This document shows, piece by piece, positions 10,728 through 42,846 of a DNA stretch of 53,726 nt. The position numbers and the translations under genes were made by a program. This stretch comes from Candidatus Bathyarchaeota archaeon (lineage in GTDB: Archaea; Thermoproteota; Bathyarchaeia; Bathyarchaeales; Bathycorpusculaceae): positions 1 through 53,726 of the forward strand of contig JAFGNM010000021.1 in the NCBI GenBank assembly GCA_016927015.1. Reading direction: 5' to 3'. The notes under the pieces were generated by a model. The model made no database searches, had not been told where the DNA came from, and was given only the letters and a program-made list of their open reading frames with translations. The stretch's first letter is position 1, and the number at the start of each line of letters is the position of its first letter.

Positions 10728-11846
10728 ATGCCTAACAGGTACGACATTCAAGTTTTTACTACGGTCGATGATATAGGCAAAGATTCAATAGATGCTATTT
10801 CTGGTGATAGCGCGTTTACATATGGCTGGTTTAAAACTATTGAGCACCAAACAAATTTGAATTTTACTCCCAAATATTTCGCAGCTTACGAAAGCGACAA
10901 ATTAATAGGACTAGCCCCTTGTTTTCTTGATACTATTGGAAATTATTTTTCTTTTGGTCCTCATGTTATTCCTTTTATGAGTGAATTGATGAGGTTAGGA
11001 GAGCGAGTTGGTATTTGGCAAAAACGAATATTAGTTTGTTATTCTCCCTTTTGTTATCGTAGTAAAATCTTGCTAAGTGAAACTTGCTCCAAAAAAGATG
11101 TCCTTCACCTTTTACTCGAAAAAATCGATTATATTTGTAAAAAAGAGCGAATATTGTTTAGCTCTTTTCTTTTTGTTTCGGAATTTGACAAACTTTTGTC
11201 AAATGAGGTTTGGACTTTCCATTATAAAAAATTCCCTTGGAAATATACCTATTACATTGATGTTAACTGGTCTAATTTTGAAGAATACTTGACAAGTCTA
11301 ACACGTTGGAGTAGAAAAACGATTCGGCGCGACATTAAGAAATGCCGAGAAAATGGCGTGATATTTAATTACGAAGCTGAACTTGGTGAACTTTCAGAGA
11401 AATTATCTTTTTTACACTCAAACTTGTTCCGAAAACACAACAAAGGACATTTAAATTCCCCGTATCAACCATCTTTTTTCAAGAGTCTAAATGAATTTGC
11501 AGGAGACAGCGTTAAGGTTTTTATAGCCCAAAAAAAAGGTAAAGTTATGGGTTTTTCATTACGTATGGGTCATAAAAATGTTCTCGACAGTATTATGGTT
11601 GGATTTGATTATGATTTCCAAGAAACTGACTGTGCCTATTTTAATCTCGCTTTCTATGAACCAATAAAATGGGCTATCAAAAAAGGTTTTAAAAAAATAT
11701 ACTACAGATTCACCGCAGAAGAAGGAAAAATTCGACGTGGATGCAAACGCGAACAGATTTTTACTTATGTGAAATGCTACAATAGATTTTTAGATGCCTT
11801 GGCAGATGTCTATGTGAAAAGAAAATACAAAAACTGCCTTTGTTGA
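10728..11846 (+). CDS. GNAT/FemAB-like acyltransferase (BioF2-like domain)
   Basis: This 372-residue protein shows the double-GNAT layout of the FemAB/BioF2-like group (Pfam Acetyltransf_6 type). A W-S-R-K-T-I-R-R-D-I-K-K helix lies near residue 195, the strand V-F-I-A-Q-K-K-G-K-V-M-G-F-S leads into the acyl-CoA-binding core, and the family ending F-T-A-E-E-G-K-I-R-R-G-C-K-R sits near residue 340. Related proteins attach acyl or aminoacyl groups to cell-surface glycans. It follows the PP-loop gene by 3 bases, so the two are probably co-translated. Codon use is strongly A/T-ending, like the next gene and unlike the flanks. The transferred group is unknown. Confidence 0.75.
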   Translation: MPNRYDIQVFTTVDDIGKDSIDAISGDSAFTYGWFKTIEHQTNLNFTPKYFAAYESDKLIGLAPCFLDTIGNYFSFGPHVIPFMSELMRLGERVGIWQKRILVCYSPFCYRSKILLSETCSKKDVLHLLLEKIDYICKKERILFSSFLFVSEFDKLLSNEVWTFHYKKFPWKYTYYIDVNWSNFEEYLTSLTRWSRKTIRRDIKKCRENGVIFNYEAELGELSEKLSFLHSNLFRKHNKGHLNSPYQPSFFKSLNEFAGDSVKVFIAQKKGKVMGFSLRMGHKNVLDSIMVGFDYDFQETDCAYFNLAFYEPIKWAIKKGFKKIYYRFTAEEGKIRRGCKREQIFTYVKCYNRFLDALADVYVKRKYKNCLC

Positions 11847-19751: not shown

Positions 19752-21347
19752 ATGGACAAAGCGCTCAATATGGGCAAAGCATCAGCCACTGGAAGTTTTC
19801 AATTGTTCATCGGAAAAGTCCTATCCACCCTAATCTTGGCTGCTGGCTCTATAATCGTAGGCTTATTCATTTCAGACACCGACTATGGTCTATACACCAT
19901 AGCGTTAATCCCCGCATCAACCCTGCTTCTCTTTCAAAGCTTGGGCATCAGCGCCGCCATGATTAAATATTGCGCCCATTACAGAGCAACAAACCAGAAG
20001 GAGAAATTGCGCCAATTAATCGTTGCAGGATTAACTTTTGAGGTTACAACTGGATTAGCCCTGACGGCAATTTCGCTGTTAACGGCAAACTTCATAGCGT
20101 CAACAATCTTTGGTCAGCCAGATTCAGCATTTTTGATAACTCTTGCGTCCCTAGTTATTTTATCCACAGCCCTCATGGCTCCAGCTCAGTCCATATTTTT
20201 GGGTTTTGAACGAATGGACCTTAACGGTTTCACGATGGTTTGCCAAGCTATAACATATTTTATGACTCCTCTGCTCGTTTTTCTAGGATACGGCGCATTG
20301 GGCGCTGTAGTCGGTTACACTTTCTCACTGCTTGCGACAGGAATAATCGCGATAATAATGCTTTATTTTGTCATATTTAGAAAACTGGGCCCTAGCAAAA
20401 ACATGCAGTCTAGTCTATCTCAAACCCTGAAACCTATGCTTCATTATGGCGTGCCTATAGCGGTCGCATCCATTTTGGGAGGGATCCTCCTTCAATTCTA
20501 TAACTTCATGATGGGCGCGTTTTGCGACCTATCGCTGATCGGTAATTATAGAATTGCCACAAATTTCGCGATTTTGTTATCTTTCTTAACAATTCCCATA
20601 TCTACTGTTTTGTTTCCAGTTTTTTCCAAGCTCGACGCCAGAAAGGAGACGCAGCTTCTCCAGACAATCTTTGTTTCCTCAGTTAAGTATACTGCTTTCC
20701 TTTTGGTACCCGCAACTTTAGCTCTAATAGTGTTGTCACAGCCGATAATCAGCACAATATATGCTGATAAATGGCCTCATGCCCCTTACTTCCTAACTTT
20801 ATATGTTATATCTAATTTGTTTTCAATTTTCGGAAACCTGAGCTTGGGCAATCTGCTAAACGGCTTGGGCGAAACAAAAACGTGGATGAAGCTGAACATA
20901 CTAACGCTTTGCATAGGAGTTCCCTTAGCTTTTATCCTGATTCCCGCGCTTGAAATAGTTGGAGTTATCCTTTGCATTCTCGTAGCTGGGGTGCCAAGCA
21001 TGTTTATAGGTCTACACTGGATTTGGAAGCGCTACGGGGTCAAAGCAGACCTTAGCTCATCAGCAAAAATGTTTCTAGCATCTGCCATCGCCGCAATAGC
21101 AACTTACCTGTTCCTAACAGTTTTTAATGCGGCTGCTTGGTTAACGTTAACAGGAGGTGCAATAATTTTTCTGGCGATATACCTAATAGCTGCTCCGCTT
21201 ATCGGCGCAATCAACCAAACGGACATTAACAACCTCAGAGCCATGTTCTCTGGCTTAGGAATAATATCAAAGCTGCTGGAAATACCGTTGACTCTGATGG
21301 AAAAACCATTAAAAGTACGTCTTCATCGTGCTGAGACAATTAATTAA
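19752..21347 (+). CDS. Wzx-like polysaccharide flippase
   Basis: A 531-residue integral membrane protein with about 14 predicted helices, consistent with the MOP/MATE superfamily of polysaccharide exporters. Typical elements are the opening G-K-A-S-A-T-G-S-F-Q-L-F-I-G-K, an A-L-I-P-A-S-T-L-L-L-F-Q-S-L-G-I segment in the first helix pair, and a V-P-I-A-V-A-S-I-L-G-G segment at the start of the second half. Such proteins move polyprenyl-linked glycans across the membrane. The C-terminal 30 residues are basic and cytoplasmic. No strong ribosome site is seen; the ATG at 19752 is the first that precedes the conserved start. It provides the export step for the island. Confidence 0.88.
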   Translation: MDKALNMGKASATGSFQLFIGKVLSTLILAAGSIIVGLFISDTDYGLYTIALIPASTLLLFQSLGISAAMIKYCAHYRATNQKEKLRQLIVAGLTFEVTTGLALTAISLLTANFIASTIFGQPDSAFLITLASLVILSTALMAPAQSIFLGFERMDLNGFTMVCQAITYFMTPLLVFLGYGALGAVVGYTFSLLATGIIAIIMLYFVIFRKLGPSKNMQSSLSQTLKPMLHYGVPIAVASILGGILLQFYNFMMGAFCDLSLIGNYRIATNFAILLSFLTIPISTVLFPVFSKLDARKETQLLQTIFVSSVKYTAFLLVPATLALIVLSQPIISTIYADKWPHAPYFLTLYVISNLFSIFGNLSLGNLLNGLGETKTWMKLNILTLCIGVPLAFILIPALEIVGVILCILVAGVPSMFIGLHWIWKRYGVKADLSSSAKMFLASAIAAIATYLFLTVFNAAAWLTLTGGAIIFLAIYLIAAPLIGAINQTDINNLRAMFSGLGIISKLLEIPLTLMEKPLKVRLHRAETIN

Positions 21348-21499: not shown

Positions 21500-22207
21500 A
21501 TGCGCCGTTCCGCAGTGACAATTGTCATTCCAGCCTATAACGAGGAAAAAACTATAGGTAACGTTATATCCGAAACAACCTCAATCATGAACGGCTTAGA
21601 TGTGCCTTACGAAATCATAGTAGTCGACGACGGGTCAACAGACAAAACAGGACAAATCGCCTCTACCTATAAGGCAATAGTCATTTCTAACAAGAAAAAT
21701 TGTGGCAAAGGCTACGCTCTGAGAAAAGCGCTCCAACACGCAAGCGGCGACATAATAGTAACCATTGACTCTGATGGAGAACATAAGCCCAAAGAAATCC
21801 CGGACCTTATTGAGCCATTGTTTAACGGAACGGACATCGTGGCGGGATCAAGGTTCCTAGGCAACCAAAGGCGGGCGACAAAGAACCTTAACGTAATAGG
21901 CAATTTCTTGTTTAACGCTGCAATAATGACCTTAACTGGCAAGGTTGTTACCGACAGCCAGACAGGCTTTAGGGCTGTAAAAAGGCATGTTCTGGAAACG
22001 CTTAATTTGGAGTCAGACGGCTACGAAATTGAAGCTGAGATAACCGTTAAAGGTTTAAGAAACGGCTTTGTTTTCAAAGAAAAGCCCATAACCGTCGAAA
22101 GGAGACAGTATAGCATATCCAAGCTGAAGTTGCTCTCCGATGGAACACGGATCCTGAAAACCATCTTGAGGGCCAAGTTCGCAAAAATCACGGATTATTC
22201 CGATTAA
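21500..22207 (+). CDS. Dolichyl-phosphate-sugar synthase-like GT2
   Basis: This 235-residue glycosyltransferase resembles dolichol-phosphate mannose/glucose synthases, which load a sugar onto a polyprenyl phosphate for use outside the membrane. Motifs are V-I-P-A-Y-N-E-E-K-T-I-G-N-V, V-V-D-D-G-S-T-D-K-T near residue 43, D-S-D-G-E-H at the metal site near residue 94, and G-S-R-F-L-G-N-Q. A D-S-Q-T-G-F-R-A segment lies near residue 155. No C-terminal membrane helices are present, so it is a soluble or peripheral form. The ATG at 21500, with GAGAAGG just upstream, is preferred over 21422, because the extra 26 residues do not look like part of the domain. Confidence 0.88.
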   Translation: MRRSAVTIVIPAYNEEKTIGNVISETTSIMNGLDVPYEIIVVDDGSTDKTGQIASTYKAIVISNKKNCGKGYALRKALQHASGDIIVTIDSDGEHKPKEIPDLIEPLFNGTDIVAGSRFLGNQRRATKNLNVIGNFLFNAAIMTLTGKVVTDSQTGFRAVKRHVLETLNLESDGYEIEAEITVKGLRNGFVFKEKPITVERRQYSISKLKLLSDGTRILKTILRAKFAKITDYSD

Positions 22208-22384
22208 TTGCTGAGCAATACGCGCATTATATCCAAACGCGTGGACGCTTTTCAACTCGCCTTTTTGCTCTTTGAAACGCCCATTTTGCAATGGAACTTC
22301 CTTGGTTGTGTTCTATAATTCTTTTTCATACAGGCTTATTAAGAGGGTTTACGCAAAGTTGTGCCTGAGAGGGGAGAAGTGATT

Positions 22385-22903
22385 ATGCACAAGAGTATAC
22401 TATTCGCTATATTCGTTATCGCGTTGATCGGTAGTTTGGTAACGGTAGCTTCTGCTTACAACTGGAATGGCTCACTGGAATCAGGATACGCCGTTACAAG
22501 CAACTATCACGGGATTGATGTGCCATCAGGTGCCAAAGTAGTTGTCACTGCTATGACGACTGACTGGTCGGTGGACAAGGTCACCTTCATATGGAAAAAC
22601 CCGGCAGGTCAAGTAGTATTCTCGGAAACTAAACAAGTATACACTAACGGAACAAAGTACGCTGGCAAACTAATCCGCTATGCCAACTCAACATTCGAAC
22701 CAAATGCCTTTGGTGACTGGGGCGTCCAAGCAAAATTCTTAGACGTACATCGCATCTGCAGATGCATCTGGACAGAAAAAGTAGCAAAAAGAGCTACTTC
22801 ATTTAACGTCATTCCCGAGGTCCCAATAATAGGCACAGCAGGCGCATCAATAGCGATGCTTTTGGGCTTAACATATAAGCTAAAGAGGAAGTCTCAAAAG
22901 TAA
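22385..22903 (+). CDS. Exported protein with PEVP-type archaeosortase sorting signal
   Basis: A 172-residue surface protein. Residues 1-24 form a signal peptide (K-S-I-L-F-A-I-F-V-I-A-L-I-G core, cleavage after A-S-A). A beta-rich domain of about 115 residues follows, with several tryptophans and a C-R-C pair near residue 122. The C-terminus is tripartite: I-P-E-V-P-I-I-G, a hydrophobic helix A-S-I-A-M-L-L-G-L, then K-L-K-R-K. This is the layout of PEF/PGF-CTERM-type signals that archaeosortases cleave. The next gene is an archaeosortase, so it is probably the dedicated substrate. GGGGAG lies 8 bases before the ATG at 22385, preferred over the GTG at 22361. Function of the mature domain is unknown. 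Confidence 0.8.
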   Translation: MHKSILFAIFVIALIGSLVTVASAYNWNGSLESGYAVTSNYHGIDVPSGAKVVVTAMTTDWSVDKVTFIWKNPAGQVVFSETKQVYTNGTKYAGKLIRYANSTFEPNAFGDWGVQAKFLDVHRICRCIWTEKVAKRATSFNVIPEVPIIGTAGASIAMLLGLTYKLKRKSQK

Positions 22904-22914
22904 ATCAACCAAAA

Positions 22915-22980
22915 AGAGGGCAGCCAACGCTAGTTTTCACGACTAGTGTTCCGCATGTCGCGGGCCTCTGTTTTTATATT
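22915..22980 (+). terminator. Structured hairpin terminator with T-run
   Basis: An outer stem (AGAGG-C with GCCTCT) encloses an inner 9-bp stem (AACGCTAGT at 22926-22934 with ACTAGTGTT at 22942-22950, one G-U pair) and is followed by TGTTTTTATATT. It lies 11 bases after the stop of the sorting-signal protein and before the archaeosortase gene, so it probably ends the abundant substrate mRNA and keeps enzyme expression lower. Confidence 0.6.
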
Positions 22981-23032
22981 CTCTAACTGTCTTTTTGTTT
23001 GATTATCAATTGAAAACTGGAGTGTGAATTAA

Positions 23033-25084
23033 GTGGAAGCTGTTAAACTACATCTAAAAAGCAGCGTTGCTACATTAAGAACTCATTATTTGCACATTTT
23101 TGCATTTGCACTGGTTTTATCGTCAGTTTTTGTTGTCTACGGGAATGATTTCGGAATTCTAATAAGTGAAGCATTGCAGAATGAGGCCTTAAGTCACATT
23201 TTATTGATGCCGTTTTTTGTTGGTTTTCTCTTCTATCTCAAAAAAGATGCAGTTAAAGCCGCTCTCGCGATAGATACGCACCGCAAGCGAACAACCGTAA
23301 AATCTGTGAACGAAATTTTAGGCGTGGCGCTTTGTCTTGTGGCTTTCCTAGTCTACTGGTACGGGTCTCAAACTTTCTATCCGTTAGAATATCATATTCT
23401 CTCCCTTCCGATTTTCATTGCAGGTGTCATACTTGTTTTGCTTAATCCTCGAGCGCTCCTACTGCTGATTTTCCCGATACTCTTTCTCCTGTTTTTGGTA
23501 CCGCTGCCTGCCACATTCCTTTACACTTTCGGCGGGGGTTTGGCAAATTTCAACACTCAAGTTTCCTATAGTATATTGAAAACTGTAGGGTTACCAATCA
23601 CGTTGTCCTCTTCATATGGGGCTCCGACAATTTTGCTGACAAGTTCCTCTGGGCAACCTCTAAATTTTGCCGTGGATGTAGCCTGTTCAGGAATATACTC
23701 TTTAGTAGCCTTCACAATGTTTGCCACTTTCTTGGCTTTCTTGGCTAAAACATCTATTTTCAAGAAACTTTTACTGTTCATTCTCGGCTTTGTTGTTTTC
23801 GCCGCACTAAACATTTTACGTATTATATCAATTGTTGTTGTTGGCTACTCGTTTGGAGAAGAAGCAGCGCTCTTGTTGCATTCATTCGCGGGTTTAGTGC
23901 TTATCTTCAGCGGTATGTTGCTTATTCTTGTTTTTTCTGACAAAGTTCTGAAAATACAAATAGCGACCAGGCCAGAAGAGCAACCACCCTGTCCTAAATG
24001 TAAAAGGGAGACGCAGCCCCTGATTAGCTTCTGCCAAAACTGCGGAAGATTTATCGGCAAATCAAGTAGGTTTATTTCTAAAACTCTATTTGTGAAGCTT
24101 TTCCTGTTGCTGCTGGGCTGCTCCATCGTGGTTCTTTCTATCAGTGCGCCAACTTTTGCTACGGCTAAAGACTCAATTGAACTCGAATCAAGTGGCAACT
24201 TGCAAAACTCAACGAACGTGTTTCCAGAAATACCTGATTATACCCTTGCTTTTCTTTATCGAGACACTGAATACGAGGAAATAGCCGCTCAAGACACCTC
24301 ACTCGTGTACGGCTATTTTCCATCTAACATATCCGATCAAGTTGTGTACGCCGTTGCAGGTGTTTCAAGCAGTATATCAAATCTTCACAACTGGGAAGTC
24401 TGCTTCGCAGCATTTCAGACAGCTCAAGGCCAGTCTCCTCTGGTTAAGGTACATGATTCTAGAGACATTCAGTTGCTGGAAGACCCCGCGTTAATAGCTA
24501 AGTATTTCGTTTTTGACAGCCCTGACGGTTACACACAGATTACATTGTACTGGTATGAGAAAGCAACGTTTAAAACCGGGCTCTCCGTGGAGCAGAAGTA
24601 TGTTAGGATAAGTTTGATAATTCTCACGCAAAATTCTGCGGATTATCCACAGCTTGAAGAAGAACTGCTTGCAATTGGGCAGGTAATTGCTACCACATGG
24701 GAACCATTAAAAAGTCAAGCTTTGATATCTCTCGGCGTCCCAGCGCAGCAAGCTCTGCTTGCGGTTTCCATCGCTTTTCTTGCTGTTACAATAACAACGC
24801 AATATTTCAGTGAAAAAAGGAAAGCTTCCAATAACTTGAAACTTTTCAACAATTTTGCCTCTCCTGAAGAAAAGCTTGTATTTCAGACCGTGCTTGACTT
24901 GGCTGAGGAAAAAAAGAACATAAAGACGAGTGATATTCTTGAGAATGTGCGCAAAAAACACGGTGGGCGTTCAATGAGTCTTAAGAAAGTGTTGAACGCA
25001 TTAAACGTTTTAGATGAATATAGTTTAATTCGCAGAACGGTTGTTTCCGTTGGAAATACGCCTGTACTGGTGTGGAAGGTATAG
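23033..25084 (+). CDS. Multidomain archaeosortase (sortase core, zinc ribbon, external domain, winged helix)
   Basis: At 683 residues this is about twice the usual archaeosortase length. Residues 15-305 form the eight-helix exosortase/archaeosortase core with the catalytic triad: Cys218 in V-A-C-S-G-I, Arg263 in N-I-L-R-I and His283 in L-L-H-S-F. A cytoplasmic zinc ribbon follows (C320-P-K-C323 and C334-Q-N-C337). A further membrane helix is near residue 355, then about 195 external residues whose layout recalls EpsI-like companions of bacterial exosortases, a helix near residue 575, and a C-terminal winged-helix-like domain from about 605 (S-L-K-K-V-L-N-A-L-N-V-L-D-E-Y-S-L-I-R-R). The GTG start follows a weak site. 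The enzyme would cleave and transfer the adjacent PEVP protein. The winged helix suggests a link to regulation. Confidence 0.85.
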   Translation: MEAVKLHLKSSVATLRTHYLHIFAFALVLSSVFVVYGNDFGILISEALQNEALSHILLMPFFVGFLFYLKKDAVKAALAIDTHRKRTTVKSVNEILGVALCLVAFLVYWYGSQTFYPLEYHILSLPIFIAGVILVLLNPRALLLLIFPILFLLFLVPLPATFLYTFGGGLANFNTQVSYSILKTVGLPITLSSSYGAPTILLTSSSGQPLNFAVDVACSGIYSLVAFTMFATFLAFLAKTSIFKKLLLFILGFVVFAALNILRIISIVVVGYSFGEEAALLLHSFAGLVLIFSGMLLILVFSDKVLKIQIATRPEEQPPCPKCKRETQPLISFCQNCGRFIGKSSRFISKTLFVKLFLLLLGCSIVVLSISAPTFATAKDSIELESSGNLQNSTNVFPEIPDYTLAFLYRDTEYEEIAAQDTSLVYGYFPSNISDQVVYAVAGVSSSISNLHNWEVCFAAFQTAQGQSPLVKVHDSRDIQLLEDPALIAKYFVFDSPDGYTQITLYWYEKATFKTGLSVEQKYVRISLIILTQNSADYPQLEEELLAIGQVIATTWEPLKSQALISLGVPAQQALLAVSIAFLAVTITTQYFSEKRKASNNLKLFNNFASPEEKLVFQTVLDLAEEKKNIKTSDILENVRKKHGGRSMSLKKVLNALNVLDEYSLIRRTVVSVGNTPVLVWKV

Positions 25085-25176
25085 GGAATAATCCGAAACA
25101 TTAAAGAAAGCGTTGCCAGTCATTTCCGTTAGATGTTGCTTTCGCAAATAGTGAATTCGCAAAGGGGTCTGAAAAT

Positions 25177-25980
25177 TTGAAGCCAAAACGCCGAGTCGGG
25201 GGCGCTGTTTCGAGCAAAATTAGTGTTTTATTCTTAATTTCAGGCATCTTGTCTCTTGCTTTTTCCATGTACTCTGAATCCCAAATTTTGGCGCTCATAG
25301 GCTTAGGTTTGGCTTTCTGGGGTGCGCTTTTTATCCTTCTCAAACCTCCAAAGTTAGTAGAAGGTAGCCTTCTATACAACACTACGGTGTCCACTTACTT
25401 GACGGCTGACAGAATAATTGATGACTTCGGCTACAAAGGGGATGGCTATTACCTATCCACATATCCAAAGGACGTTTACCTTCCTGAATATCTCAAGGGT
25501 TTAAAGGCTTCAGTTGTTTTTATTTCTGCCAAAAACGATAGCGAAATGCCCTCAATCGAAGAAATAGCTAAAGGAAAATTCATGTCTAAAAGTGCAAAAG
25601 GAGTGCTTGTGACACCTCCAGGATCAGGTGTTCTGACTCAAATTGAAGAGAAAATGAACGTGGATTTTATCAAGATGAAACTTGGGGAAATTTGCGAGGT
25701 TCTGCCCATTTTTATCTCGCAGGATCTCAATTTGGCAAGAGAGATGGAGCTGAAACTAGACGGAGACCAGGTGCATCTAACGATGTTTGATTCGTTATAC
25801 AGAAATCTTTACAGCCTGCGGAATAATTTGAAAAGCGTTAAGCTTCTCGGCTGTCCAATTGCAAGTGCGGTGGCTTGTGCTCTTGCAAAGGCTTCTGGCA
25901 GAACTGTGACAATTCAGAAGCTGCAGGTGTCTCCTGACGGTTTAGCCATAGCCGTGTGGTATAACATTTTGCAAGGTTGA
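25177..25980 (+). CDS. Membrane-anchored protein of unknown function behind the archaeosortase
   Basis: I do not recognise this 267-residue protein. Residues 14-52 form two membrane helices, after which about 215 residues are cytoplasmic by the positive-inside rule. Notable segments are L-V-T-P-P-G-S-G-V-L near residue 145 and G-C-P-I-A-S-A-V-A-C-A-L-A-K-A-S-G-R near residue 230, the latter glycine/alanine rich and possibly ligand-binding. The start is TTG at 25177. It lies 92 bases after the archaeosortase and its stop codon overlaps the next small gene, so it probably belongs to the sortase transcription unit and may assist substrate processing. Confidence 0.65.
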   Translation: MKPKRRVGGAVSSKISVLFLISGILSLAFSMYSESQILALIGLGLAFWGALFILLKPPKLVEGSLLYNTTVSTYLTADRIIDDFGYKGDGYYLSTYPKDVYLPEYLKGLKASVVFISAKNDSEMPSIEEIAKGKFMSKSAKGVLVTPPGSGVLTQIEEKMNVDFIKMKLGEICEVLPIFISQDLNLAREMELKLDGDQVHLTMFDSLYRNLYSLRNNLKSVKLLGCPIASAVACALAKASGRTVTIQKLQVSPDGLAIAVWYNILQG

Positions 25981-25985
25981 TACAA

Positions 25986-26192
25986 ATGAGTTTCCCTTTA
26001 TCCTTGTCAGATATCAGTTTGTGGCTTGCCGTAACGGCTATAATACTTTTGCTAACGTCCGAGCTCCTGTATTCGCTACCAGAGATTTCGGCGCGGCTTG
26101 TGATTGATAAGAAGCGATTGAGGATGGCGGCTCTTGGCGTAGGCTTGGGTTTTCTGGTTACAGTTGTGATGCGCGTTTTCCAACCTTTCTAG
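25986..26192 (+). CDS. Small two-helix membrane protein
   Basis: A 68-residue protein (or 71 if the overlapping TTG at 25977 is used). It has two hydrophobic helices, about residues 10-30 and 45-62, separated by a loop with K-K-R-L-R. It starts at or just after the stop of the preceding membrane gene, which indicates co-translation. No family is recognised. The tight linkage to the archaeosortase block makes a structural or accessory role in that membrane complex plausible. Confidence 0.6.
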   Translation: MSFPLSLSDISLWLAVTAIILLLTSELLYSLPEISARLVIDKKRLRMAALGVGLGFLVTVVMRVFQPF

Positions 26193-26387: not shown

Positions 26388-26858
26388 ATGATAAATGAGA
26401 ATTGGTTAAATCAAGCCCTAAAAAGTGAAATTGCGCTCAAAGAAAAGAAACAGCTGCTCCTAACACAAATAGGCTATTTACGCATAAATATATTCACAGA
26501 ATATTTCGAGCGAGTAAATCTCCTGCGAGAAAAAAACCAGCTAGAACATGCTGTCGAACTAATGAACAAGCACGCCGAAATAGCGAGCATTTTCATATCG
26601 ACAAAAAAGCAACCAGTCTTAATCAAGCGACTTAAAGAACTACTATCAATACGAAGCACCGAACCTATAGAATACCTGCAGAAATGGCGAACTGCTTACG
26701 AAGCATGGTATAAACAGGCGTCCAGTCAACAACTGACCGGTGAAAAAAAGCGAATGGAAGAATTCGATCAACTAAAAATGGCTTTCCTTGAATTATATAC
26801 ATTCTCATTTTCAGTCGATAACTTTCCGCCATTACGCAACCGTCGTTCAGATCATTAA
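26388..26858 (+). CDS. All-helical cytoplasmic protein, true start probably upstream
   Basis: The ATG-initiated form is 156 residues, rich in Lys, Glu, Gln and Leu, with long amphipathic helices and coiled-coil character. No family is recognised. The frame stays open upstream to a stop at 26262, adding about 38 residues of the same composition (an L-K-E-L-Q-D-I-F-Q-V-L-K helix). A TATA box and G-rich ribosome site lie just before that extension, but there is no ATG/GTG/TTG; the nearest candidates are ATC at 26274 and TTA at 26280. The gene is probably about 194 codons long. It stands alone between the sortase locus and the exported beta proteins. Confidence 0.6.
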   Translation: MINENWLNQALKSEIALKEKKQLLLTQIGYLRINIFTEYFERVNLLREKNQLEHAVELMNKHAEIASIFISTKKQPVLIKRLKELLSIRSTEPIEYLQKWRTAYEAWYKQASSQQLTGEKKRMEEFDQLKMAFLELYTFSFSVDNFPPLRNRRSDH

Positions 26859-27179: not shown

Positions 27180-27638
27180 TTGGTGACTCTAATTTCTAGT
27201 TTCCTAATAGCCTCATGGTTCTATGGCGCTTATACGCCTATCGGTGACGATGACCGAACCATCCCAACTACTGGCGTAATATACGTTAGAGGTTTAGAAA
27301 TCTACGGTGGAGACATAACATCAGCGACTGGGAACGTCACCGTAGATTGGGGTGAACTTACTTTGGGGGCTTCCAAAAACGCGTCGTTTCACGTAAAAAG
27401 CACCAGTAACGTTGATGTGGAACTTGGTTTAAATGTGACTAACTGGGAGCCATTGGGAATTGAGGAGTACATAACTATTTCCTGGAATTACAATGGAACC
27501 GTGCTCAGTCCAGCCCAAGAGATTTTGGTCACCGTCAACTTGGACGTCTCGTCATCGGAAGATTTTATCGACTTTCTTGTGGAAAACAACGTTACAGCGT
27601 TTGGTTTCGATATAACTATTTACGCTTCTGGCGTGTAA
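27180..27638 (+). CDS. Membrane-anchored beta-sandwich-like exported protein
   Basis: From the TTG the product is 152 residues: the second half of a membrane helix (V-T-L-I-S-S-F-L-I-A-S-W), then an external domain of about 125 residues with V-D-W-G-E-L-T-L-G-A-S, V-K-S-T-S-N-V-D and W-N-Y-N-G-T-V-L segments. These match the protein encoded convergently at 27708-28154. The TTG cuts through the hydrophobic helix. In-frame sequence continues back to 27006, adding a Lys/Arg-rich amphipathic N-terminus and the first half of the helix, behind AAGGGAG and an ATT codon. A TATA-like element (ACTTTAATTG near 26950) supports the longer form of about 210 residues. The fold recalls CARDB/DUF11-type or TasA-like surface domains, but that is tentative. 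Confidence 0.65.
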   Translation: MVTLISSFLIASWFYGAYTPIGDDDRTIPTTGVIYVRGLEIYGGDITSATGNVTVDWGELTLGASKNASFHVKSTSNVDVELGLNVTNWEPLGIEEYITISWNYNGTVLSPAQEILVTVNLDVSSSEDFIDFLVENNVTAFGFDITIYASGV

Positions 27639-27707: not shown

Positions 27708-28154
27708 TTATTCTGCGCCTGTTATGACTATGTTGAAGCTGAAATCTGATAGGTCGCCTGTAGTTGAAGCTGCCGTCAGAGTGAGATTCGCTGAAACTGA
27801 CTCGCCGACGCCTAGGTCTGTACCTTCTTTATCCCACGTTAAAGTCAGATAGTCGTCAGCGTCTGTCGGCACCCAACTGTCAGTGGTCATGGTGAGCTTG
27901 ATTGGGATGGTTCCAGTATTTTTCACGTATACTGTTTTGCTGGTTGAGTTGCCTGGGTATAATGATCCCCAGCTAATTGATGTGCAGTTTTGGGTGCATC
28001 CACTATCTGAGTAGACGCCTACGTTTACTGTTGTTACTGTTCCGTTTGACGGTATTGTTTGTGTGGCTATTATTCCAGCGGTTACTAAGGTTAGGAATAT
28101 GCTTGTTGTTGCGAGTGCTATTATTACTCCTGTGGATAGTTTCGGTGTTGCCAT
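27708..28154 (-). CDS. Exported beta-sandwich-like protein (signal anchor)
   Basis: A 148-residue protein. A signal peptide or anchor occupies residues 8-30 (V-I-I-A-L-A-T-T-S-I-F-L-T-L-V-T-A-G). The external domain has V-G-V-Y-S-D-S-G-C-T-Q-N-C (a probable disulfide), S-W-G-S-L-Y-P-G-N-S and Y-V-K-N-T-G-T-I-P, and ends in a F-S-F-N-I-V-I-T-G strand. The same order of motifs is seen in the convergent gene at 27180-27638, so the two are distant homologues. The ATG at 28154 lies behind GGGGAGAG; an earlier in-frame ATG at 28196 lacks a site. It has no sorting signal. It may be a surface or filament-type subunit. Confidence 0.75.
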   Translation of the reverse strand: MATPKLSTGVIIALATTSIFLTLVTAGIIATQTIPSNGTVTTVNVGVYSDSGCTQNCTSISWGSLYPGNSTSKTVYVKNTGTIPIKLTMTTDSWVPTDADDYLTLTWDKEGTDLGVGESVSANLTLTAASTTGDLSDFSFNIVITGAE

Positions 28155-28650
28155 TGTTTGTTCTCTCCCCTTGATGTCTTGAATCGGTTGTCTCAAGTGT
28201 TAATAAACATTATTGTCCACGATAACAACACAAATACACTTCCCAAACGCGGAAAACAAAATTCAGCTTCACCCTAAAACAGAAAAAAGAAAACCTGTTA
28301 AACTAATCCACGCAAGCAATTTTTCTCGAATCTGCTAAAACGCGCTCAAGCAACAAATAGCGTTTAGACCCAAAACCACTTAACTGCCAAATAGTGTCGC
28401 CAGTTATTCAGTCAGCGACTTAAGCTGCGACTGGCGTCACCTAAAGGAGGCGCTAAACTCTAAGCTTAATATCATGGTGTGAGGACTCAGATGACCAAAC
28501 CACACTTATAGCTTTACCAACCTTCTCAAAAAACAGCCGCCAGACATTTCTGACCGCTATTACAGCTACCTCACTGGTTGTTAGACCTTCTGAACCGCGA
28601 AAGGATCATACCAGAAACCCTGAAAAACCACACCCACCCAACAACCACCG

Positions 28651-28764: not shown

Positions 28765-29400
28765 TTGCCTTCTAAGGAGGAACACACCTCGTTTGCTGTT
28801 GGACACATGGCGCTAGCATATTTGTTGAGTAAAGCATCCGCCAAGCTTCTTAAGGTAAACTTCAACGTACCACTAATCTTGGTTCTCTCAGTAATTCCAG
28901 ACATCGACCTTCTCTTCGATTTTCTCCTCAAAACTGAGATACATCGAGGCCCAACACACTCCGTAATAACGGCAATACTAGTTTTCATCCCTTTCTTTGT
29001 GCTCTACCGCCAGAAGGCAGTACCCTACTTCACCGCTTTAATTTCTCATTCTCTGATAGCCGACTTCTTAATTGGGGGCCAGCTGCAGTTACTGTGGCCT
29101 TTGTCCACAAACGAGTTCGGTTTTCCTTACATTAACATCTATGATCCAATAAATATTGCACTTGAATTCACATTATTCATTATAGCTCTAGTAGTCATGT
29201 TGAAGACGCGTGATTTATTCCATTTTTTTCGGGACAGCAAGCTAACCTTAATTCTAGCCATACCCATTTTCACGGTTTTGCTGCCCACTTTCACAGGTTA
29301 CCCGTTAAGCGTTCCCATCCTGTTGGTGCTGCCGCATCTGTTTTATTTAATGCTGTTTTCCATTTCAATTTTAATCACGCTCAAGGGGATTCTGAAATAG
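28765..29400 (+). CDS. Membrane-bound metal-dependent hydrolase (YdjM/DUF457-like)
   Basis: This 211-residue integral membrane protein has the layout of the LexA-regulated/YdjM membrane hydrolase group. An early H-x-x-x-G-H segment (E-H-T-S-F-A-V-G-H) is followed by I-P-D-I-D-L-L-F-D near residue 50 and H-R-G-P-T-H-S near residue 65, the metal-ligand pattern, with about six membrane helices. The substrate is unknown; relatives resemble phospholipase C-like zinc enzymes. The TTG at 28765 gives the only start that includes the first histidine. A strong AAGGAGG at 28774-28780 lies inside this frame with no usual start codon at its proper distance, so the real start is unclear. Confidence 0.75.
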   Translation: MPSKEEHTSFAVGHMALAYLLSKASAKLLKVNFNVPLILVLSVIPDIDLLFDFLLKTEIHRGPTHSVITAILVFIPFFVLYRQKAVPYFTALISHSLIADFLIGGQLQLLWPLSTNEFGFPYINIYDPINIALEFTLFIIALVVMLKTRDLFHFFRDSKLTLILAIPIFTVLLPTFTGYPLSVPILLVLPHLFYLMLFSISILITLKGILK

Positions 29401-42043: not shown

Positions 42044-42117
42044 TGCCGAGGGCCGGGTTTGAACCGGCGACGACTCGGTCTTCAGCCGAGCGCTCTCCCA
42101 GGCTGAGCTACCTCGGC
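42044..42117 (-). tRNA. tRNA-Phe (GAA)
   Basis: On the minus strand a complete cloverleaf folds. The acceptor stem is GCCGAGG/CCTCGGC with discriminator A, the anticodon stem CTCGG/CCGAG encloses a CTGAAGA loop (anticodon GAA), and the T-arm has GGTTCAAAC. Length is 74 nt. There is no intron, and CCA is not encoded. Confidence 0.95.
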
Positions 42118-42595: not shown

Positions 42596-42683
42596 TTTTG
42601 TGTCCCTTTAGTTTCTTTTTGTTTTTGTTTGGGGAAAGGTTTTATGAAGGGTTGATTAGTATTTTGGATTCAGGAGAGTGTTT

Positions 42684-42757
42684 GGGCCGATAGTCTAGCT
42701 CGGTAGGACGTTGCCCTCACGCGGCAAAGATCGCCGGTTCGAATCCGGCTCGGCCCA
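42684..42757 (+). tRNA. tRNA-Val (CAC)
   Basis: A full cloverleaf: acceptor GGGCCGA/TCGGCCC with discriminator A, anticodon stem TTGCC/GGCAA around CTCACGC (anticodon CAC), and T-arm GGTTCGAAT. Length 74 nt, no intron, no encoded CCA, and a T-run follows. Confidence 0.95.
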
Positions 42758-42846
42758 TTTTTGGTGTTTTTGTGTTGTACGTGTGCACAAAAAGGTTTAT
42801 TAAATCTGATTATTTGAGATATATGGTTGTTTCCTGGAGGGTTAAG

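Follow-up and report, generated by a model that had tools for sequence, protein, structure and literature searches.

A bacterial-type exosortase and its putative VPE-tailed substrates beside a glycan locus in Bathyarchaeota

A long, multidomain exosortase encoded in a genome of Candidatus Bathyarchaeota very probably sorts secreted proteins that carry a C-terminal tail opening with V-P-E, in what would be an archaeal equivalent of the PEP-CTERM/exosortase system of bacteria. The DNA analyzed (the window, 53,726 nucleotides) is one contig, number 53, of a draft genome that totals 1.93 Mb and is split into 133 pieces, and the four database neighbors of the long exosortase were each labelled Candidatus Bathyarchaeota. 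The evidence comprises the architecture of the enzyme, its conservation among homologues, the co-occurrence of tails and enzyme across genomes, and the glycan locus in which the genes lie. The features of the locus are collected in Table 1.

Table 1. Positions of the sorting genes and their island neighbors in the window
Feature	Position	Strand	Remarks
FemAB-like protein	10728..11846	+	Adjacent glycan locus; PF04339, 1e-23
Polysaccharide flippase (MOP/Wzx type)	19752..21347	+	Island-conserved
GT2 glycosyltransferase	21500..22207	+	Upstream of the substrate gene; PF00535, 2e-34; homologues share the ATG start
Putative substrate, 172 aa	22385..22903	+	Secreted, tail-bearing; signal peptide, small divergent ectodomain, IPEVP tail
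I-P-E-V-P motif	22811..22825	+	Membrane helix and basic tail run to 22900
Terminator-like hairpin	22917..22977	+	Between substrate and enzyme genes; z -3.3
Multidomain exosortase, 683 aa	23033..25084	+	
Exosortase domain, residues 32-300	23126..23932	+	PF09721, 3e-34
Catalytic-site codons	23684 (C218), 23819 (R263), 23879 (H283)	+	
Zinc ribbon, C320/C323/C334/C337	23990..24046	+	Cys invariance; weak Pfam zinc-ribbon scores
EpsI-like external domain, about residues 375-570	24155..24742	+	H452, E455, C457, Y506-W507
Predicted cytoplasmic winged-helix domain, about residues 605-683	24845..25081	+	P677 and W681 invariant
p267	25177..25980	+	Two N-terminal membrane helices, soluble alpha/beta domain; conserved partner
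p71	25977..26192	+	Two-helix membrane protein; conserved partner; overlaps p267
Ig/ASH-like secreted protein	27180..27638	+	Membrane-anchored; island-conserved
Ig/ASH-like secreted protein	27708..28196	-	Paralogue of the 27180..27638 protein
YdjM-like membrane protein	28765..29400	+	Island-conserved; PF04307, 1e-13

An intact multidomain exosortase

By both profile and motif, the enzyme is a member of the exosortase/archaeosortase superfamily. It scored 119 bits against PF09721 (cut-off 25.7; E 3e-34; residues 32-300) and 59 bits against TIGR04178 (cut-off 23), and its C218-x-G220, N260-x-x-R263, and H283-x-x-x-G287 correspond to the three motifs that define exosortases in Haft 2006 (PMC1569441). 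The first-pass annotation had named Cys218, Arg263, and His283 as an exosortase-type site; these residues were read correctly and were invariant in 19 homologues reaching down to 30% identity, as were C320, C323, C334, C337, H452, E455, Y506, W507, P677, and W681, with N260 nearly so. In three genomes of one genus (G239, G297, G382), Ser replaces the catalytic Cys in both the long (L167, L168, L169) and the short (L173, L174, L175) Xrt, within the motifs EPSSG and WPSAG and with Arg and His retained; these genomes nonetheless carry four to ten VPE-tail proteins.

Along the chain, the exosortase domain is followed by a zinc ribbon inside the cell, a helix, an EpsI-like domain outside, a second helix, and the winged helix inside. 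The outside domain was acidic or neutral and the inside domain basic in 19/19 homologues, a charge pattern predicted by that topology. The multidomain enzyme proposed from the window alone was found to recur: 20 of the 61 relatives carry the chain, two of which have it as fragments at contig ends. Across the phylum, 25 of 398 genomes have it, single-contig genomes among them, and it occurs in two more distant lineages as well. An assembly join or read-through that fused a normal exosortase to unrelated zinc-ribbon, EpsI, and winged-helix genes might be suspected in so fragmented a draft, but it is already refuted by this intact recurrence and retains a vanishingly small probability; the zinc ribbon and winged helix belong to one gene. 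In the AlphaFold model of the full enzyme, pLDDT fell below 50 at residues 205-221 and the membrane part lay below the confidence useful for placing Cys, Arg, and His relative to one another, and searches of PDB sequences with profiles of the enzyme and p267 gave no useful match.

The name archaeosortase, which had been used for the long enzyme, was rejected on profile scores and a tree. Against NCBIfam models the enzyme scored 90 bits with XrtW, 76 with XrtA, and 60 with XrtD, with XrtV and XrtB also within 60-90 bits, versus 27 bits with ArtC (cut-off 100); ArtA was not listed for the window protein. None of the named subfamily cut-offs (XrtA, XrtD, XrtW, and others) was reached, the best being XrtW at 90 bits versus 425. 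The two short Xrt genes of the same genome are thaumarchaeosortase-like, and the short archaeal enzymes stood apart from the long and bacterial ones in the tree (93/91; unrooted, with long branches). These comparisons indicate that the long enzyme should be called a bacterial-type exosortase rather than an archaeosortase. Like XrtA (TIGR03109), XrtD (TIGR04152), and XrtW (NF038142), it has an 8TM core with C-x-G, N-x-x-R, and H-x-x-x-G, an EpsI domain (fused here, fused or adjacent in the bacterial systems), and a glycan locus with glycosyltransferases and FemAB-like proteins. Unlike them, it lies far below each subfamily cut-off and adds a zinc ribbon and a C-terminal winged helix. With ArtA/PGF-CTERM, ArtC/PEF-CTERM, and thaumarchaeosortase (TIGR04297) it shares the superfamily, archaeal hosts, and the tail logic of motif, helix, and basic end, but it is nearer to bacterial exosortases in sequence, is much larger, and has the EpsI domain.

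Zinc-ribbon Pfam models matched most homologues with weak scores. A single-sequence search of the enzyme with PF11984/TIGR02914 (EpsI) gave no match. A profile of the segment was then compared with bacterial EpsI and XrtD C-termini, using sequences from plasmids, and hhalign aligned it with bacterial EpsI at a probability of 86% and E 5.5e-6 (one target, single comparison). In the alignment, H452-x-W-E455-x-C457 lies opposite H-S-P-E-V-C and the YW motif opposite YYWF, giving the core motifs H-x-[WP]-E-x-C and YW[YF]; H452 and E455 are universal among the homologues, C457 is not. The XrtD model, an exosortase with fused EpsI, spans residues 44 to 516 of one homologue. Fusion of exosortase and EpsI has already been described in bacteria (PMC1569441), so the new parts of the enzyme are the zinc ribbon and the winged helix. 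Our literature search found no published report of this exosortase/zinc-ribbon/EpsI/winged-helix fusion.

The C-terminal region has a predicted H-H-H-E-E order of elements with pLDDT of about 80. Its weak Pfam matches were Cdc6_C in four members, MCM4_WHD in two, and HTH_12 in one, and Foldseek gave matches to RTP (replication terminator protein) and archaeal Orc1/Cdc6 (E 0.04-0.17) that are suggestive, none being statistically strong. The agreement of element order with these weak family and fold matches supports a winged-helix fold for the domain. An apparent EpsI-winged-helix protein that does not include an exosortase domain was seen in genome G315 (L141:1303-2451), near a p267 homologue and a short protein with a tail; upstream of it, a masked stretch of N may hide the missing part.

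VPE tails and their link to the long enzyme

The secreted protein with an IPEVP motif, membrane helix, and basic tail had been placed and spelled correctly in the first-pass annotation, and its tail reads NVIPEVPIIGTAGASIAMLLGLTYKLKRKSQK. Its start was taken as the ATG at 22385, an in-frame GTG farther upstream at 22361 being possible. Orthologues of this protein in seven loci had diverged bodies and conserved tails. A tail model of 38 positions was built from 18 tails, and the window tail matched it at E 1e-14. Searching with this model revealed a second tail protein in the same genome, on contig 59, with 422 aa, an Ig-like domain, and a tail beginning VIPEVPLGT; relatives carry up to 17 such proteins, with 15-17 in some. 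The original proposal of a one-substrate system was consequently dropped. The tails are borne by mostly unrelated or diverged ectodomains, encoded both in cis and in trans to the enzyme.

Tails of the window's clade were mostly VPE-x-P-[LI]-G, and those of the other clade had the forms VPE-[LI]-[GA]-T and VPEY-x-x-G. Across the tails compared here, the general motif is V-P-E, with PEVP as its local form. The suggested search of other genomes for the same domain chain and for PEVP tails found the chain and the tails as such, the motif being generally VPE. The sorting tail of bacterial PEP-CTERM proteins begins VPEP. The tails described here likewise open with V-P-E, but continue as VPE-x-P-G or VPE-[LIY]. 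NCBIfam CTERM models, searched at E up to 1, gave nothing above cut-off, either for the window protein or for 10 further proteins; below cut-off, only weak LEVG-PEP-CTERM, LPXTG, and NPXTG matches were seen. VPEY-type tails often have a Cys in the membrane helix (ACFAA-like; L087, L145-L147, L151, L157-L159), which is absent from most PEVP-type tails.

Among 61 genomes, some of which supplied the tail model, tails were found in 18 of the 20 with a long Xrt versus 2 of the 41 others (p 2.5e-11). In a held-out set of 27 genomes, none used for the model, the counts were 12/12 with the long enzyme versus 0/15 without it (p 5.8e-8); both Fisher p values are inflated by relatedness among the genomes. 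Four genomes departed from the pattern. In G027, which has a tail and no enzyme, a contig starts within p267, at the place expected for the enzyme gene, and the 94%-complete G042 has a substrate orthologue with a tail and no detected long Xrt. Conversely, G035 has a long Xrt with a sub-threshold VPEF tail near it, and the long Xrt of G051 is a fragment. Short Xrt genes occurred in most relatives whether or not tails were present, and the tail link is therefore specific to the long enzyme. The pairing of sortase and tail suggested at the outset was thus upheld in genomes that had no part in the model, and the sequence data support a genuine sorting pair, the long exosortase and the VPE tails, located next to a glycan locus.

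It is improbable that the enzyme acts instead on polysaccharide, with the tails serving as plain membrane anchors. A glycan locus is indeed adjacent, and a flippase or polymerase role was once proposed for EpsH (cited in PMC1569441), but the association of tails with the enzyme holds for unlinked tail genes and in the held-out genomes. Moreover, the bodies of the proteins diverge whereas the motif preceding the helix is kept, which plain anchors would not require.

Since a terminator-like hairpin lies between the substrate and enzyme genes, their cotranscription may be lacking. No promoter motif common to the two substrates of this genome scored better than shuffled controls. One candidate, CTTATTAAGARGGG, an element upstream of both, was rejected: it did no better than shuffles, stood at unequal distances from the starts, and partly resembled a ribosome site.

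The glycan island and a proposed sorting mechanism

Around the enzyme, the flippase, the GT2 gene, two Ig/ASH-like anchored proteins, p267, p71, and the YdjM-like protein recur. Farther upstream in the window lie glycosyltransferases, a pyruvyl transferase, and the FemAB-like gene, and this glycan locus parallels one bacterial XrtA locus that carries a FemAB gene. The proposed tie to a glycan island was therefore borne out by the glycosyltransferases, the flippase, and the FemAB-like protein. Each of the paired Ig/ASH-like proteins has a single domain, with Cep192/HYDIN-like matches (E down to 1e-3 among members), and such anchored proteins recur in islands even where no long Xrt was found. 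The islands of the second clade also contain DUF1616 membrane proteins whose N-terminus is HTH-like, encoded downstream of either the enzyme or p267 (L055:13115-13750; homologues in L037, L050, L051, L053, L056, L059, L070, and L072); tblastn found no such homologue in the window. A 156-residue protein at 26388-26858 stands beside the island here and in one relative only (L036/L044, 68% identity), and a Pfam search with it gave no match. Elsewhere in the window, genes for tRNA-Phe (42044-42117, minus strand) and tRNA-Val (42683-42758, plus strand) lie on opposite strands with about 570 bases between them.

The two small membrane genes downstream had been described as coupled. The 4-nt overlap of p267 and p71 makes this clear for that pair only, p267 starting 92 nt past the enzyme stop. 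Their co-occurrence with the enzyme, put forward as a check, was confirmed, p267 being present in 19/20 long-Xrt genomes and p71 at most loci. Six genomes without a long Xrt also have p267, several of them in glycan islands, so p267 is bound to the island and not to the enzyme alone. Unlike the bacterial exosortase systems, this one has partners, p267 and p71, that matched no named family. The fold of the soluble part of p267 weakly matched Bet3/TRAPP and H-NOX-like structures (E 0.01), hinting at a possible ligand- or acyl-binding domain.

In the mechanism we favor, secreted proteins would enter the membrane via Sec and be kept anchored by the C-terminal helix. With its Cys/Arg/His site presumed to lie on the outer side of the membrane, the long exosortase would recognize V-P-E just beyond the membrane and cut there. 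The cut protein would be handed to an acceptor, a lipid or a glycan, produced by the neighboring glycan locus or by genes close to it. We infer both cleavage at VPE and this transfer by analogy with exosortase/archaeosortase systems, among which Haloferax ArtA is linked to cleavage and lipid anchoring (PMC7157517). The EpsI-like domain, outside beside the active site, probably aids use of the acceptor or release, a role modelled on the fused bacterial XrtD and XrtA enzymes. Inside the cell, the zinc ribbon and winged helix would most likely couple sorting to cytoplasmic partners or to gene expression.

How the inside domains might do so was considered in two forms. It is plausible, though we hold it only tentatively, that the zinc ribbon and winged helix serve to dock cytoplasmic glycan enzymes or translocation partners at the sortase and have no DNA role. 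The best-conserved winged-helix positions, P677 and W681, are structural or on strands and lie off the recognition helix, and the glycan locus offers a fixed partner set; the nearest fold matches, however, are DNA-binding winged helices, though weak ones. The other form, a one-component membrane regulator in which the occupancy or state of the sortase and EpsI parts is relayed to substrate or glycan promoters, is rather unlikely. The winged helix is kept in every full-length homologue and is basic in 19/19, but the positive-inside rule would likewise predict a basic charge, the surface residues of the recognition helix are unconserved while P677 and W681 are conserved, and no promoter motif of both substrates outperformed its shuffled controls. 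Membrane-bound HTH regulators of archaeal surface structures do exist, namely ArnR/ArnR1 (PMC6396743), and other HTH-like membrane proteins (DUF1616) occur in some of these islands. ArnR/ArnR1 resemble the long exosortase in having an HTH-type domain tethered to the membrane and a link to surface structures; they differ in that the HTH is N-terminal and is not fused to an enzyme, and regulation has been demonstrated for ArnR (PMC6396743), whereas a regulatory role of the winged helix described here is putative. We consider it doubtful, at roughly one chance in a few, that a sortase and a transcription factor are joined in one chain, so that the sensed state of substrate or acceptor adjusts the expression of tail-protein or glycan genes; if the winged helix were regulatory, the sortase would signal how active it is.

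Under the favored sorting mechanism, the exosortase and VPE tails would constitute a real and hitherto undescribed surface-sorting system. Exosortase/EpsI systems of the bacterial type, here with a separate class of tails and numerous substrates, would now extend to Bathyarchaeota and related archaea, organisms about whose cell surfaces almost nothing is known. The host archaeon differs from the bacterial hosts in having no outer membrane, and the EpsI and FemAB-like genes are shared between the two, which suggests that the function of exosortases is linked to glycan acceptors and not to outer-membrane export. The VPE tail may serve as a sequence tag that predicts sorted surface proteins in these organisms, with p267 and p71 as the partner gene set.
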